Under the pieces are notes generated by a model. It did no database searches. It worked only from the letters and a program-made list of their open reading frames with translations, and was not told the origin of the DNA. DNA of 64,000 nt. Source: Alphaproteobacteria bacterium (GTDB lineage Bacteria; Pseudomonadota; Alphaproteobacteria; Micropepsales; Micropepsaceae). The stretch is taken from assembly GCA_025350465.1 (NCBI GenBank), contig JANXXU010000002.1, positions 124,001 through 188,000 of the forward strand, read 5' to 3'. Made by a program: the position numbers and the translations under genes. Positions 9,716 to 17,161 of this stretch are shown one piece after another. Each line of letters starts with the position of its first letter. Within the stretch, counting starts at the first letter, position 1.

Positions 9716-10330
9716 ATGGCCCGCCTTCAGAAATTGATTCAGCCCCGCGCCTGGCAGCGCATGCTGTCGGGACGGCGGCTCGACCTGCTCGACCCGTCGC
9801 CCTTCGACGTCGAGATCGAGGACATCGCGCACGGTCTCGCTCGCGTCGCACGCTGGAACGGGCAGACCCACGGCGATCACGCCTTCTCGGTGGCGCAACA
9901 TTGTTTGGTGGTCGAGGACTTTGCCGGGCTGATGCGCGCGGGACTTTCCCAGCGCTGGCGGCTCGCCGCGCTGTTGCACGATGCGCCGGAATACGTGGTC
10001 GGCGATTTGATCTCGCCGTTCAAGGCGGCAGTCGGGCTCGACTACAAGGCGCTCGAGAACAAACTGCTTGCCGCGATCCACATGCGCTTCGGCGTGCCGG
10101 CGAAGCTCCCGGAGGAGATCACGGCGCTGATCAAACGGGCGGATCGCGCGGCGGCGCATTATGAAGCGGTACAGCTTGCCGGCTTCTCGACGGAGGAAGC
10201 GATGACTTATTTCGGCGTTCCGCGTGGCTTACCCACCGTGAAGCTGATGCCGATGCCGACAAAGGAAGCGCAGCGTCGCTATGTCGAGCGGTTCAAGGCG
10301 CTCGTCGCCGGCGCCGGGCTGGCGCCTTAG
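9716..10330 (+). CDS. HD-domain phosphohydrolase (YfbR-like nucleotidase fold)
   Basis: Soluble protein of 204 residues with the metal-binding HD signature: His62 in SVAQH, His88-Asp89 in ALLHDA, and Asp143 in KRADRAA, plus EYVVGD after the HD pair as in YfbR-type 5'-nucleotidases. Members dephosphorylate deoxynucleoside monophosphates or related nucleotides; the true substrate here is unknown. It is the first gene of a tight three-gene unit: the stop is followed after four bases by a tyrosine-phosphatase-like gene, which overlaps or abuts a NadQ-like regulator. This context hints at a nucleotide or NAD-linked substrate, as inference only. Confidence 0.88.
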   Translation: MARLQKLIQPRAWQRMLSGRRLDLLDPSPFDVEIEDIAHGLARVARWNGQTHGDHAFSVAQHCLVVEDFAGLMRAGLSQRWRLAALLHDAPEYVVGDLISPFKAAVGLDYKALENKLLAAIHMRFGVPAKLPEEITALIKRADRAAAHYEAVQLAGFSTEEAMTYFGVPRGLPTVKLMPMPTKEAQRRYVERFKALVAGAGLAP

Positions 10331-10334
10331 ACCA

Positions 10335-10850
10335 ATGTCCGCGATCTACGTTTGCCCAAAGAGTCAGGTACCGGATGCGGCGGAACGGTTAAGGCCGTCG
10401 CACCTTATCACGCTGCTCGACCCAAGCGACGAGATGCCGACGCCCGAGGGGATTGCCGCCCATCGCCATTTGCGGCTCGGCATGAACGATGTCGTGCACG
10501 CCCTGCCCGACCACACGCCGCCCGACGAACAGCACGTACGCGAGATCATTGCATTCGCCCAAACCTGGGATCGCAAGCGGCCCATGCTGGTCCATTGTTG
10601 GGCCGGCATCAGTCGCTCGACGGCGACGGCCTTCACGGTGCTCTGTATGCTGAACCCCCGCGGGCGAGAGACGCAGATCGCCGTCGCGCTGCGCAATGCC
10701 GCCGCGCATGCGCAACCCAACCTACGCATCGTCGCACTCGCCGACCATTTGCTCGATCGCGACGGTCGCATGGTTGAGGCCGTCGATCAGATGGGCCCGG
10801 CGCGCGCGACCTACGAAGGCGAATTGTTCGGACTGGGGCTCGAGCATTGA
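10335..10850 (+). CDS. Tyrosine-phosphatase-like protein (cysteine phosphatase fold)
   Basis: Protein of 171 residues with the cysteine-phosphatase loop HCWAGISRST (Cys88, Arg94), matching the HCx5R(S/T) signature of dual-specificity and tyrosine phosphatases. Around it are TLLDPSDEMPTP, HLRLGMNDV and ADHLLDRDGRMVEAVD, typical of short alphaproteobacterial phosphatase-like proteins. The substrate may be a phosphoprotein or a small phosphate ester. ATG 10335 begins four bases after the HD gene stop, and the end abuts the NadQ-like gene, so the three are very likely one transcript and may share a pathway. Confidence 0.87.
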   Translation: MSAIYVCPKSQVPDAAERLRPSHLITLLDPSDEMPTPEGIAAHRHLRLGMNDVVHALPDHTPPDEQHVREIIAFAQTWDRKRPMLVHCWAGISRSTATAFTVLCMLNPRGRETQIAVALRNAAAHAQPNLRIVALADHLLDRDGRMVEAVDQMGPARATYEGELFGLGLEH

Positions 10851-11907: not shown

Positions 11908-12210
11908 TTAAATCGACTGCTTCAATTCCTTGGCGGCGCGGAAGGCGACTTTCTTCGACGCCTTGATCTTGATCGCTTCGCCGGTCGCCGGGTTGCGGCC
12001 CATGCGTGCCTTGCGATTGCGCACCATGAAGACCCCGAGCGATGGAAGGCGAACCTTGTCGCCCTTCTTCATGTGCTTGCAGATCATGGTGACAAACGCG
12101 TCGGTATACTCGCCCGCTTGCTTTTTTGTCATATCGTGCTTTTCCGACAAGGCGGCGACAAGATGCTTCTGGGTGACGGTGGGCTTCTTCGGTCCTGCTG
12201 CTGCGGCCAT
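11908..12210 (-). CDS. HU-family DNA-binding protein
   Basis: Nucleoid-associated protein of 100 residues. The HU/IHF fold is clear: TQKHLVAALSEKHDMTKKQAGEYTDAFVTMICKHMKKGDKVRLPSLGVF, then the beta-arm tip RNPATGEAIKIKASKKVAFRAAKELK, with the conserved Asn-Pro that intercalates in DNA. Family length is about 90; the extra N-terminal residues are an Ala/Pro/Lys stretch (AAAAGPKKPT). ATG 12210 is chosen since AGGGGT lies upstream and the longer frame adds nothing recognisable. Its hairpin terminator lies just downstream. Whether it is a main HU or a specialised paralogue cannot be told. Confidence 0.93.
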   Translation of the reverse strand: MAAAAGPKKPTVTQKHLVAALSEKHDMTKKQAGEYTDAFVTMICKHMKKGDKVRLPSLGVFMVRNRKARMGRNPATGEAIKIKASKKVAFRAAKELKQSI

Positions 12211-12466: not shown

Positions 12467-13414
12467 TCACCAACAGCGCGAGCGGTCCTCGATCGCGATT
12501 TCCGTCAATACGGCGGCGTGGTCGGAACCGGGCAGCACGAGCACTTTGCGGCTGGCAAAGGCGATGCCGTCCGTCGCCATGACGTGATCGATCGGCAGGC
12601 GTAGAGGCGCCGGAAGGATCGACGGCCAGGTTCCACCGGCACCAAGCGACACATGCAAATTCGCCTGTTCCGCAACGGTTTTCAGGATATGCCCCCACGG
12701 CACGGCGTTGAAGTCGCCGACAAGAAGCTTCGGCCCGGGCCAGCCTCTGAGCGCGGCCGCCAGGTCGTCGGCCTGCTTGCTCTGGGCCCAAGCGGGCATG
12801 TGCGGAAACGGCCGCGTCAAGTGCGTGGCGAAGATATTCAGCGCGCAGCCCGCCGCGCTCGTCTCGAACCAGGCGATCGGCGAGCGATCCGGCGGCCCGG
12901 TGAAATCAATGTGGGGCTCCTTGATCGGTAGCCGAGAGAAAACCAAGACGTCGCACCCTGGCGTCTGCCAGCATTCGAAACGCTGTGGATAACGCGCATC
13001 GAGCGGGCGCAGCCGTTCGCGAGCAGCCGCCGTAATCTCAAGCAACACGACGACGTCGGCGTCGACTGCTTGGATAGCGGCGGGAAGTCGATCAAGCGTG
13101 CCGTTGCGAACCCACACATTGAAGATGAGCACGCTGACGCGGGCGGCGCCCGCTGGTGGCGGTGTGGACGCCTGCGTCCACGGCCACGCGAGAGCGAATG
13201 CCAAAACCGCGGCAGCAGCACCGGCGGCTGCGAGCCATTTGCGGCGCAAGGCGAGCGCAATCAGGCCGGCGATCAGTGCGAGGAAGAAGGATGGTGTCAG
13301 GAACTGTGCCAGGAGATCGAGAGACCAGTGCACGTCGGTGAGCAAAGCACCCGCGCAAACCCCAAAGACGACGACAATCGGCAGGAGGAGAACGCAAAAA
13401 ATGATGTTTCTCAT
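12467..13414 (-). CDS. Membrane-anchored endonuclease/exonuclease/phosphatase family protein
   Basis: Protein of 315 residues with three N-terminal membrane segments (about 3-27, 38-58, 62-80) and a C-terminal EEP domain facing the outside or cytoplasm. Catalytic motifs are in place: FNVWVRNG at the start of the fold, VVLLEI (metal Glu), FATHLTRP, LLVGDFNAVPWG, LPIDHVMA and GSDHAAVL. This YdfI/YafD-like arrangement is widespread; substrates may be nucleic acid, inositol phosphate or lipid head groups. The gene is divergent from nadA, so the 230-base gap between them holds both promoters. Confidence 0.88.
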   Translation of the reverse strand: MRNIIFCVLLLPIVVVFGVCAGALLTDVHWSLDLLAQFLTPSFFLALIAGLIALALRRKWLAAAGAAAAVLAFALAWPWTQASTPPPAGAARVSVLIFNVWVRNGTLDRLPAAIQAVDADVVVLLEITAAARERLRPLDARYPQRFECWQTPGCDVLVFSRLPIKEPHIDFTGPPDRSPIAWFETSAAGCALNIFATHLTRPFPHMPAWAQSKQADDLAAALRGWPGPKLLVGDFNAVPWGHILKTVAEQANLHVSLGAGGTWPSILPAPLRLPIDHVMATDGIAFASRKVLVLPGSDHAAVLTEIAIEDRSRCW

Positions 13415-13538
13415 TCGCTCTTCGCTAAGCGGCTGGATGGTGTGCCGGCGCTGAAGCCCACGCTAGAGCTTCGTCGTCAGCCGGTCGTGTGACCGATATC
13501 GCGCAAACCTGTGGCGTATGGGACTCTTGACTTTGCCT

Positions 13539-13557
13539 TATGCTCAAACTTAGCATT
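13539..13557. promoter_or_regulatory. Upstream NadQ/NrtR-type operator candidate (site A)
   Basis: The 19-mer TATGCTCAAACTTAGCATT matches site B in its first eight bases and in the AGCAT half of the other arm. It lies between the divergent EEP and nadA genes, 73 bp centre to centre from site B, that is about seven helical turns, consistent with a looping or cooperative repressor. Assignment to NadQ rests on the nearby regulator gene and symmetry, not on a known motif. Confidence 0.6.
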
Positions 13558-13611
13558 AAGCGCTCACGATGTTGGCGGCCCCCTTGGAGTCGCCGTTTTT
13601 GATACCATATA

Positions 13612-13630
13612 TATGCTCACTATGAGCATA
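13612..13630. promoter_or_regulatory. Perfect palindromic operator candidate at nadA (site B)
   Basis: The 19-mer TATGCTCACTATGAGCATA is a perfect 8-bp inverted repeat around a three-base centre. It ends 14 bases before the nadA ATG and just before GGAGA, so a bound protein would block transcription start or early elongation. It is the strongest regulatory signal in the window and the natural target for the NadQ-like protein encoded at 10865-11836. Confidence 0.75.
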
Positions 13631-13644
13631 ATGGAGATCGCCCG

Positions 13645-14691
13645 ATGGCCGCGGCCCTAGCCAGTCAGGTGTTGGCGTATACGCCGGACGTCGCGAAAGC
13701 GACCGCGAGCCTTTACGTGAAGGTCGCCAAAATCATTCCGGAAATCGAGTGGCCGGTGTTCGCGCCACTGATCGTCGAAATCAACCGGTTGAAGAAGGAA
13801 CGCGACGCCGTCATCCTGGCGCACAATTACCAAACACCCGAAATCTTCCACTGCGTCGCCGATTTCGTCGGCGACTCCCTTCAACTCGCGCGCGAGGCGG
13901 CGAAGGTCGACGCCAAAATCATCGTACAGGCCGGCGTCCATTTCATGGCGGAGACGTCGAAGATCCTTTCGCCCGACAAGATCGTGCTGATCCCGGACTT
14001 GCGCGCCGGCTGTTCGCTCGCCTCGTCGATCACCGGCGCGGACGTGCGCCTGCTGAAGGAAAAATATCCGAACCTGCCGGTCGTGACCTACGTGAATACG
14101 TCGGCCGACGTGAAGGCGGAGAGCGATGTGTGCTGCACTTCGTCAAATGCGGTGGCGGTCGTCGAGTCGATTGCGGCGGAGCGCGGCGTCGACACCGTGA
14201 TCTTTATCCCCGACACCTTTCTCGCCAAGAACGTAGCCAAGCAAACAAAGATCAAGATTATCGCCTGGCACGGCAAGTGCGAAGTGCATGAACGCTTCTC
14301 GGTCGACGAGGTGCGCCGCTTCCGCGCCGATCACCCGGGCGCAATCGTTCTGGCGCACCCGGAATGCCCACCGGAGGTCGTCGCCGAGTGTGACTTCGCG
14401 GGCTCGACCTCGGCCATGATCGACTACGTGGCGAAGAAGCGCCCGCCGCGCGTCGTGATGCTGACCGAATGCTCGATGAACGACAACGTGGCGGCGGAGT
14501 ATCCCGACGTCGAATTCCTGCGGCCCTGCAATCTTTGCCCTCACATGAAGCGCATTACGCTTCAAGGCATTCTGCGCTCGCTCCAGACGATGCAGTATGA
14601 AGTAAAAGTCGAGCCGTCGATCGCGATGCGAGCGCGCGCGGCGGTCGAGCGGATGCTGCAAGTCGGCAAGCCGACACCGGCGGTGCGCTGA
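13645..14691 (+). CDS. nadA: Quinolinate synthase A
   Basis: Iron-sulfur enzyme of 348 residues that condenses iminoaspartate with dihydroxyacetone phosphate to quinolinate, the second step of de novo NAD synthesis. Family motifs are clear: [36 protein letters not shown], and the three [4Fe-4S] cysteines in AGCSLA (about 123), HPECPPE (about 240) and CNLCPHMK (about 298). ATG 13645 lies 8 bases after GGAGA. The stop is two bases before nadB, and nadB overlaps nadC, so the three form one operon. The palindromic site ending at 13630 predicts repression by the NadQ-like regulator. Confidence 0.97.
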
Positions 14692-14693
14692 TC

Positions 14694-16277
14694 ATGTCAC
14701 ACGGGGTCAACGATACTATCATTGATTCAGGCGGCGTTTTGATCGTCGGCGCGGGTCTTGCCGGTCTCTTTACGGCGCTGAAATTGAAACGTCCGGTGAC
14801 AGTGCTTTCCGCCGCGCCGCTTGGTGCCGGCGCCTCGAGCGTATGGGCGCAAGGCGGCATCGCTGCGGCCCTCGGTGCCGATGACGCGCCCGAGCTTCAC
14901 GTCGCAGACACGATCGCGGCCGGCGCAGGCATCGTCGACGAGAAGATCGCGCGGATCATCGCCGAGGATGCCGCCGCGCGGATCGAGGACCTGAACGCGC
15001 TCGGCGTGCCGTTCGATCGCGATGCGGGAGCATACGTTCTCGGCCGCGAGGCTGCGCATTCGCGCCACCGCATCGTGCGCGTCAGCGGCGATCGCGCGGG
15101 TGCCGAGATCATGGCGGCGCTAGTTGCCGCAGTCAGAGCGACGCCACGCATCCGCGTCATCGAAGGCTTGATCGCCTTCCAACTCGCGCTCGAAGGCGGC
15201 CGTGTTGTCGGCGTCTACGCGCATCCCCTCGCCGACCGCGCGGCGACCGTGTTCGTGCGCGCGCAGGCGACGATCTTTGCACTGGGCGGCGTCGGCGGTC
15301 TCTACGAAGTTACGACGAACCCATCGCAGGCACGCGGTCAAGGCGTCGGCATGGCGGCACGCGCGGGCGCCATGATTGGCGATCCCGAGTTCGTCCAGTT
15401 TCATCCGACCGCGATCAATATTGGGCGCGACCCCGCGCCGCTGGCCACAGAAGCGCTGCGCGGCGAAGGCGCGATTCTGGTCAACGACAAAGGCGAGCGC
15501 TTCATGCGCGCCGTGCATAAGGATGCAGAACTCGCGCCGCGCGACGTGGTGGCGCGCGGCATCTTTCGGGAAATCCAAGCGGGGCGCAAAACCTTTTTGG
15601 ACGCGCGAAAGGCGGTGGGCACGAAATTCCCGCATGCCTTTCCTACCGTATTCGCATCGTGCATGAGCGCCGGGATCGATCCGCGCACGCAGCTCATTCC
15701 CGTGGCGCCGGCCGCGCATTATCACATGGGCGGGATCTCGGTTGACGAACATGCGCGCACGAGTCTGGCGGGCTTGTGGGCGACCGGGGAATGCGCCTCG
15801 ACCGGTGCGCATGGCGCAAATCGTTTGGCTTCCAATTCGCTGCTTGAAGCTATTGTCTTCGGAGCACGGGCCGCCGACGACGTCTGCGGAGTGGCACTGA
15901 ACGTGGGAACGCTGTCGCCCGTCGCGCCACATGGCGAACAGGCGCCGCTGTCGCTCAATGCACTCGCCACGCTACGCCATACGATGACGATGAATGTCGG
16001 CCTTGAGAGGTCGGCGGCGGGCTTGCGCGAAGCACTCGAAGCGATCGCGCGGCTCGAGCGCGCTGGCGGCAACGATGCCGATCTGCGAAACATGACCGCG
16101 ACCGCAACTCTCATCGCGGCGGCAGCGCTTCAACGTGAAGAAAGTCGCGGCGGACATTTTCGCATCGACTTCCCGAAGGCCGATGAGGTGTGGCGCCATC
16201 GCACGTTCCTGACGCTCGACGACGCGCGCGACATTGCGAGCGGAGCCGCGTCGGGGCCGACGCGAGTTGCGTTATGA
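14694..16277 (+). CDS. nadB: L-aspartate oxidase
   Basis: Flavoenzyme of 527 residues that oxidises L-aspartate to iminoaspartate for NadA. It has the N-terminal FAD site VLIVGAGLAGL, the SSVWAQGGIAAAL loop, AHSRHRIVRV, the catalytic-region HPTAI and EALRGEGAILVN, YHMGGISVDEHARTS and GLWATGECASTGAHGANRLASNSLLEA, all typical of NadB rather than succinate dehydrogenase SdhA. A helical C-terminal domain closes the protein. It starts two bases after nadA and its stop codon overlaps the nadC start as ATGA, implying translational coupling. Confidence 0.97.
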   Translation: MSHGVNDTIIDSGGVLIVGAGLAGLFTALKLKRPVTVLSAAPLGAGASSVWAQGGIAAALGADDAPELHVADTIAAGAGIVDEKIARIIAEDAAARIEDLNALGVPFDRDAGAYVLGREAAHSRHRIVRVSGDRAGAEIMAALVAAVRATPRIRVIEGLIAFQLALEGGRVVGVYAHPLADRAATVFVRAQATIFALGGVGGLYEVTTNPSQARGQGVGMAARAGAMIGDPEFVQFHPTAINIGRDPAPLATEALRGEGAILVNDKGERFMRAVHKDAELAPRDVVARGIFREIQAGRKTFLDARKAVGTKFPHAFPTVFASCMSAGIDPRTQLIPVAPAAHYHMGGISVDEHARTSLAGLWATGECASTGAHGANRLASNSLLEAIVFGARAADDVCGVALNVGTLSPVAPHGEQAPLSLNALATLRHTMTMNVGLERSAAGLREALEAIARLERAGGNDADLRNMTATATLIAAAALQREESRGGHFRIDFPKADEVWRHRTFLTLDDARDIASGAASGPTRVAL

Positions 16278-17161
16278 TGGCGAAGACTCCGGCGATCCAG
16301 GTCGAACCGTTGCCCGCTCTGCTGATCGAGCCAATCGTGCGCGCGGCGCTGGCCGAGGACCTGGGCCGCGCCGGCGATATCACGAGCGACGCGCTGATTT
16401 CGGCAAGCGGGCGAGCACGCGGGCGCATCGTCGCGCGCGAAGCGGGACGCATAGCGGGGATCGGGGCGGTCGAAGCCACATATAAGATTCTCGATCCGCG
16501 TGTGCGTGTGCATATCCAAGCCGGCGATGGTTGCGATGTCGAGCCGGGCGATCTCATTGCGGAAGTTGTCGGTGAGACGCGTGCGATCCTCATCGGGGAG
16601 CGGGTGGCGCTGAATTTCCTTGGACAATTGTCTGGCGTCGCGACGGCGACGGCGAGGCTCGCCAAACTCTGTGAAGGCACCAAGGCCCGCGTAACGTGCA
16701 CGCGCAAGACGGTGCCGGGCCTCCGGGCGCTGCAGAAATATGCCGTGCGCTGTGGTGGAGGCACCAATCATCGCTTCGGACTCGACGATGCGATCCTGAT
16801 CAAGGACAACCACATTGCGTCGATCGGCGGCGTCGAGGCGGCGGTGCATCGGGCGCGTCAGCATGCCGGGCACATGGTCAAGATCGAGCTTGAGGTCGAC
16901 AGTCTCAAGCAGCTTGAAGAAGCATTGTCGCTCAAGGTCGACACGATCCTGCTCGACAATATGAAGCCCGAGCAGCTGCGCGAGGCGGTGAGAATGACAG
17001 CAGGACGCGCGATGCTTGAGGCGTCCGGCAATGTGACGGAAAAGACGATCGCCGCGATCGCTGTAACCGGTGTCGATCTCATCTCGTCGGGTGCGATCAC
17101 GCATTCGGCGAAGTGTCTCGACGTCGCGCTCGATCTCGCGCCGGCAAGCGACTCTCAATAG
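16274..17161 (+). CDS. nadC: Nicotinate-nucleotide pyrophosphorylase (carboxylating)
   Basis: Protein of 295 residues that turns quinolinate and PRPP into nicotinate mononucleotide, completing the de novo route. Visible motifs: LAEDLGRAGDITSDAL, ERVALNFLGQLSGVATATA, TCTRKTVPGLRALQKYAVRCGGG with the PRPP and quinolinate contacts, HRFGLDDAILIKDNHI, EVDSLKQLEEAL, DTILLDNMKPEQLREAV, LEASGNVT and VDLISSGAITHS. The start ATG 16274 overlaps the nadB stop by four bases; a longer frame that opens inside nadB is not used. Confidence 0.97.
   Translation: MMAKTPAIQVEPLPALLIEPIVRAALAEDLGRAGDITSDALISASGRARGRIVAREAGRIAGIGAVEATYKILDPRVRVHIQAGDGCDVEPGDLIAEVVGETRAILIGERVALNFLGQLSGVATATARLAKLCEGTKARVTCTRKTVPGLRALQKYAVRCGGGTNHRFGLDDAILIKDNHIASIGGVEAAVHRARQHAGHMVKIELEVDSLKQLEEALSLKVDTILLDNMKPEQLREAVRMTAGRAMLEASGNVTEKTIAAIAVTGVDLISSGAITHSAKCLDVALDLAPASDSQ

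Follow-up and report, generated by a model that had tools for sequence, protein, structure and literature searches.

A terminator-like hairpin at a near-fixed distance before the downstream NadQ operator of alphaproteobacterial nadA leaders

Results

The stretch of DNA analysed here (64,000 nt, hereafter the window, whose numbering is used throughout) carries a nadABC operon, with the identities of all three genes backed by NCBIfam and Pfam models (Table 1). Two 19-bp sites, which we refer to as O1 and O2, lie between the operon and a divergently transcribed gene of the Exo_endo_phos family; they are set 73 bp apart, start to start, ahead of nadA, and a gap of 2 nt separates the end of O2 from the Shine-Dalgarno sequence. 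A nadQ orthologue is found 1.8 kb upstream. Its neighbours, among them a gene for an HU/IHF-like DNA-binding protein, are included in Table 1.

Table 1. Features of the nadQ-nadABC region, in window coordinates
Feature	Position	Strand	Evidence or remark
Open reading frame 5' of nadQ, overlapping its listed TTG start	10281-10850		Matched weakly by phosphatase models (dual-specificity, tyrosine)
nadQ orthologue (start codon uncertain), encoding a regulator that carries an NrtR-type winged helix	10847-11836	+	phmmer, Pfam
HU/IHF-like DNA-binding protein gene, between nadQ and nadA	11908-12210	-	Named from sequence only
Exo_endo_phos family gene, between nadQ and nadA	12467-13414	-
-35 box of predicted promoter P1, TTGACT	13527-13532	+	Promoter scan; TTGAC kept in relatives
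O1, upstream NadQ operator (predicted), TATGCTCAAACTTAGCATT	13539-13557	+	2 mismatches to the NadQ palindrome TATGCTCANNNTGAGCATA
-10 box of predicted promoter P1, TAGCAT, the right half of O1	13551-13556	+	TAGCAT in family O1 sites
GC hairpin of the leader RNA, GGCGGC-CCCCTTGGA-GTCGCC	13574-13594	+	Comparative count; folding
T-tract GTTTTT after the hairpin, the two together an intrinsic-terminator-like element	13595-13600	+	Stem ends 17 nt before O2
O2, downstream NadQ operator (predicted), perfect palindrome TATGCTCACTATGAGCATA	13612-13630	+	0 mismatches to TATGCTCANNNTGAGCATA; published NadQ consensus
Shine-Dalgarno GGAG of nadA	13633-13636	+	Sequence; 8 nt before ATG 13645
nadA, quinolinate synthase	13645-14691	+	NCBIfam NF006878 8.4e-110, TIGR00550 2.7e-95; Pfam NadA 4e-114
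nadB, L-aspartate oxidase	14694-16277	+	NF005701 2.1e-212
nadC, nicotinate-nucleotide diphosphorylase	16274-17161	+	TIGR00078 3e-97

Sites were scored against the 19-bp palindrome TATGCTCANNNTGAGCATA. At up to three mismatches 0.09 matches are expected in the window, and two were reached in 1 of 100 shuffles; across the whole 4.06 Mb genome O1 and O2 are the only sites within three mismatches of the pattern. The product of the nadQ orthologue aligned with PDB 7q91, annotated 'NADQ transcription factor', over residues 23-325 (phmmer E-value 1.4e-83) and carries a C-terminal winged helix (Pfam NrtR_WHD, 6.1e-18, residues 250-310). The segment LHKQNFRRL, which we take to be the recognition helix of NadQ, is identical between the window protein and the solved NadQ in the phmmer alignment. 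By its title, a 2022 study by Minazzato et al. reportedly concerns the ATP response of NadQ. When compared with the NadQ operator consensus ttATRCTCannntGAGYATaa, given in the excerpted text of Leyn et al. 2016 (PMC5343134) as identified across seven proteobacterial lineages, the 19-bp core of O2 is a full match and O1 has 2 mismatches.

The sites also follow the regulator between genomes. In a sample of 85 alphaproteobacterial nadA leaders, NadQ sites were present in 58 of the 60 NadQ-positive leaders and in 0 of the 25 NadQ-negative ones (p = 1.6e-19). The exact 17-bp motif occurred at 16 places in 32 NadQ-positive genomes, 15 of which are in nadA leaders by their coordinates; the remaining palindrome (L266:1657-1673; G219 C135:1657) is found in a relative, at the 3' end of a gene resembling acyl-CoA dehydrogenases, and is probably incidental. 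Because the consensus match, the nearby nadQ and this co-occurrence agree, we read O1 and O2 as operators of a NadQ-type regulator and, within the reach of sequence evidence, regard NadQ operators at nadA as established. They are of an already known kind, sharing their operator consensus, regulator family, nadABC target and a nadQ gene near the operon with the NadQ regulon (COG4111) of Alpha- and Betaproteobacteria. An earlier, sequence-only reading of the window had described the two 19-bp repeats 73 bp apart before nadA, the second a perfect palindrome ending just before the Shine-Dalgarno sequence, and all of this holds at the positions in Table 1; its view of the repeats as operators of a NadQ-like regulator is supported by the same three lines of evidence, and the palindrome, when sought upstream of orthologous nadA genes, is present in their leaders, which favours operators.

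That reading had further taken the 73 bp as about seven helical turns and proposed that NadQ dimers, bound on one DNA face at whole-turn spacing, repress by cooperative binding or looping. The arithmetic is right (6.95 turns at 10.5 bp per turn), although it holds for the window's genome alone. We found O1 in 81 of 83 nadA loci of the window's family at up to five mismatches, and in these 81 leaders the start-to-start spacing ranges from 60 to 74 bp with modes at 63-64 and 68-70 bp. The commonest spacing (63-64 bp) corresponds to ~6.0-6.1 turns, which with the spacing in the window would fit looping, yet 18 of the 81 miss a whole number of turns by roughly half a turn (0.3-0.7 turn). Across the class the spacing runs from 22 to 131 bp and phases at 10.5 bp are uniformly distributed (R 0.13 vs 0.12 expected by chance, 59 leaders with spacing >40 bp), whilst the family value (R 0.45) is not independent evidence for phasing because the leaders share ancestry. 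Conserved helical phasing between the operators was found neither in the family (81 leaders) nor in the class (59 leaders), and the drift in spacing falls nearly all on the O1 side of the hairpin described below, which also speaks against looping. Whole-turn looping or cooperativity is not supported by these spacing statistics, and we consider it very improbable. The earlier reading is supported on the NadQ operators but not on looping, and it had overlooked both the conserved hairpin with its T-tract and the fact that O1 overlaps a -10 box.

Two other leader arrangements were seen. A further 24 class leaders have operators 22-32 bp apart and form a second leader type (mode 26 bp, ~two and a half turns) with two NadQ sites and no hairpin between them, including L108, L125, L129, L140, L142, L145, L149, L214, L217, L233 and similar leaders. 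In L032 and L064, with operators 121-131 bp apart, a second long inverted repeat (GCGTTTCC ... GGAAACGC) lies between O1 and the terminator-like hairpin.

The upstream operator coincides with a predicted promoter. TTGACT-18-TAGCAT was the sole promoter-like site recovered by a promoter scan of positions 13400-13700, and O1 covers the spacer and the -10 box of this sigma-70-type promoter, P1. Both boxes are kept in relatives. Of 80 distinct family leaders, 71 have TTGAC, at 15-18 bp from the -10 box in O1; of the 80 distinct O1 sites in the family, 68 have TAGCAT, whilst GAGYAT occupies the equivalent place in O2. The imperfection of O1 as a palindrome probably stems from this double use, since its right half would also have to serve as the -10 box of P1.

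The leader sequence between the two operators encodes a short GC hairpin and, directly after it, a T-tract. The window copy comprises six pairs, one of them G-U, a 9-nt loop and then GTTTTT, and with its flanks it folds at -14.1 kcal/mol; a strict terminator scan did not call the window hairpin. Under comparative criteria (stem of at least 4 pairs with at least 4 G-C, loop of 3-12, at least 4 T in the next nine bases) a hairpin ending 15-19 nt before O2 was present in 67 of the 74 distinct leaders of the family and in 58 of the 90 from the wider class, where dinucleotide-shuffle controls averaged 1.6 (maximum 5) and 1.0 (maximum 3), respectively. The same test upstream of O1 returned 2 of 72 leaders in the family and 0 of 51 in the class. 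The hairpin and O2 are separated by exactly 17 nt in 54 leaders of the family and 34 of the class, whilst the distance from O1 to the hairpin drifts from 6 to 25 nt within the family. Where only O2 is found the hairpin is retained at the same place, for example in Shinella, Phyllobacterium and Rhizobium. Across the class, conservation within the 50 nt ahead of O2 is highest at the T-tract (-17 to -11). A terminator-like hairpin at a near-fixed distance before O2 is thus well supported by comparison.

The class leaders contain 27 distinct stem sequences. A swapped-half test was used in place of a covariation count; a MAFFT alignment of the hairpins put the arms out of register, and the dominant stem, CCGG..CCGG, limits covariation. 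Halves swapped between species paired less often (mean 37 of 58, and 7 of 21 for stems other than CCGG..CCGG), a control that is biased because the leaders were chosen for having a hairpin. In the evenly drawn sample the hairpin was present in 25 of 60 NadQ-positive and 0 of 25 NadQ-negative genomes, an association weakened, unlike that between operators and NadQ, by the AT-richness of the NadQ-negative leaders (GC 0.42 vs 0.57), which could explain part of the absence of the hairpin from them. About one third of class leaders with a NadQ site have no hairpin, as do all the close-operator leaders (22-32 bp), so the hairpin is not required for NadQ control.

Could the hairpin be independent of NadQ? 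O1 would then occlude P1, O2 would act as a simple roadblock and the hairpin would be a constitutive weak terminator or pause. The operators and P1 that such an arrangement needs are well supported, and NadQ sites do persist in leaders that have no hairpin. Without coupling, however, it is hard to explain why the distance from hairpin to O2 stays near-fixed across diverse orders whilst neighbouring distances drift, or why leaders that lack O1 keep the hairpin alongside O2, and we regard an uncoupled hairpin as unlikely.

The fixed distance might alternatively reflect the geometry of a second promoter, P2, lying over O2, with CTTGA in the hairpin loop as its -35 box and the TATATA before O2 as its -10 box. 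Of the 65 family leaders where our script finds TTG, 54 do have it 28 nt before O2, and a TATATA-like run is common in the family; TTG is nonetheless missing from 18 of 83 family hairpins, and most leaders have no TAnnnT hexamer at a 16-18 bp spacer from TTGA. Class-wide, the commonest base at each position from -28 to -23 reaches at most 0.39, yet the hairpin, T-tract and distance persist, so that conservation across the class does not support a second promoter, which we judge improbable.

An element acting at the RNA level would instead consist of two hairpins in tandem, the first hairpin and one formed by the inverted repeat of O2, and would serve to stabilise the mRNA or to mask the Shine-Dalgarno sequence. 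The window leader folds with z = -2.59. In single-site and close-operator leaders the flanks of O2 are complementary beyond chance (0 of 2000 controls), and the extended stem reaches the ribosome-binding region in L144, L146 and L150. In the window's family, by contrast, 1800 of 2000 swapped controls equalled or exceeded the flanks in complementarity, and O1, which lies outside the P1 transcript, shares its consensus with O2. An extended O2 hairpin, significant in other clades but not in the window's family, was therefore rejected as the main explanation, and tandem RNA hairpins appear very improbable. Complementary flanks of differing sequence extend the O2 palindrome, to a degree not matched by cross-species controls, in L144, L146, L150, L052, L100, L115 and L147, all from other alphaproteobacterial clades.

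A known riboswitch or other RNA family was also considered and rejected: no Rfam family was matched at the gathering threshold in 13 relatives, and the window gave only a sub-threshold match (E 2.6). The nadA motif, or NAD+ riboswitch, reportedly treated by Malkowski et al. in 2019, is likewise a leader element controlling nadA; unlike it, the leaders described here have no Rfam match, and in those of the family the RNA ahead of the hairpin is too short to hold an aptamer. A literature search, which did not cover the work of Minazzato et al. 2022, returned no description of a terminator or hairpin element in nadA leaders, and no mapped nadA start in rhizobia was found. The excerpted text of the NadQ regulon paper (PMC5343134) gives the motif and its targets and mentions no terminator, fixed distance between hairpin and operator, or dual use of O1 as a -10 box. 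The conserved nadA-leader hairpin is apparently undescribed so far.

Discussion

The arrangement of the leader suggests that NadQ may control nadABC at two layers, with O1 blocking P1 and O2 aiding a leader terminator, a reading to which, judging from sequence, we give an even chance of being right. In the first layer NadQ on O1 would keep RNA polymerase off P1, as O1 spans the spacer and the -10 box of the promoter. The second layer would act on polymerases that have initiated: the predicted transcript would form the short GC hairpin, followed by the U-tract, within a few tens of nucleotides of its 5' end, and, as O2 starts 17 nt past the stem, NadQ bound there would block the front of a polymerase which has just made the U-tract. 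The order of promoter, hairpin, U-tract and operator, together with the near-fixed distance, suggests that NadQ on O2 meets the polymerase on the U-tract. We infer that the hairpin terminates transcription and that NadQ on O2 assists termination: a polymerase held at the terminator would be released, whereas with NadQ off O2 it would pass the modest terminator into nadABC.

Protein roadblocks downstream of bacterial promoters are established for LacI, PurR and CcpA, and these and CodY likewise use an operator downstream of the start to stop elongating polymerase (PMC10310618); unlike them, the nadA leader sets an intrinsic-terminator-like hairpin at a near-fixed 17 nt before the operator. A similar layout is that of eukaryotic RNA polymerase I terminators, which have in common with the leader the order of hairpin, T-rich stretch and protein roadblock, with a pause, in yeast, ~15 bp before the site of the protein (PMC12366685). 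They differ in being eukaryotic end-of-gene elements that use unrelated proteins, and in requiring the polymerase to backtrack towards a hairpin that lies 20 nt upstream (PMC12366685). At bacterial terminators release takes place ~8 nt past the hairpin (PMC12366685). As the stem and O2 are 17 nt apart, a polymerase that stalled 9-15 bp short of O2 would stand within or next to the U-tract, depending on the footprint of NadQ.

More tentatively, and with the balance somewhat against it, the leader may be a repressor-gated intrinsic terminator, in which NadQ, positioned on O2 as a roadblock, would make an otherwise weak leader terminator release polymerase efficiently; the module (hairpin, T-tract, 17 nt, operator) would then be in wide use in Alphaproteobacteria for NAD synthesis, with a layout like that of eukaryotic Pol I termination. 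Attenuation and repression are usually seen as separate controls, and the nadA leader would, if this is true, couple them and provide a bacterial counterpart of roadblock-assisted termination. It would also correct readings of NadQ promoters that rest on operator phasing alone. The module is present in the culturable genera Shinella, Phyllobacterium, Afipia, Rhizobium and Rhodoblastus, and is therefore directly testable.
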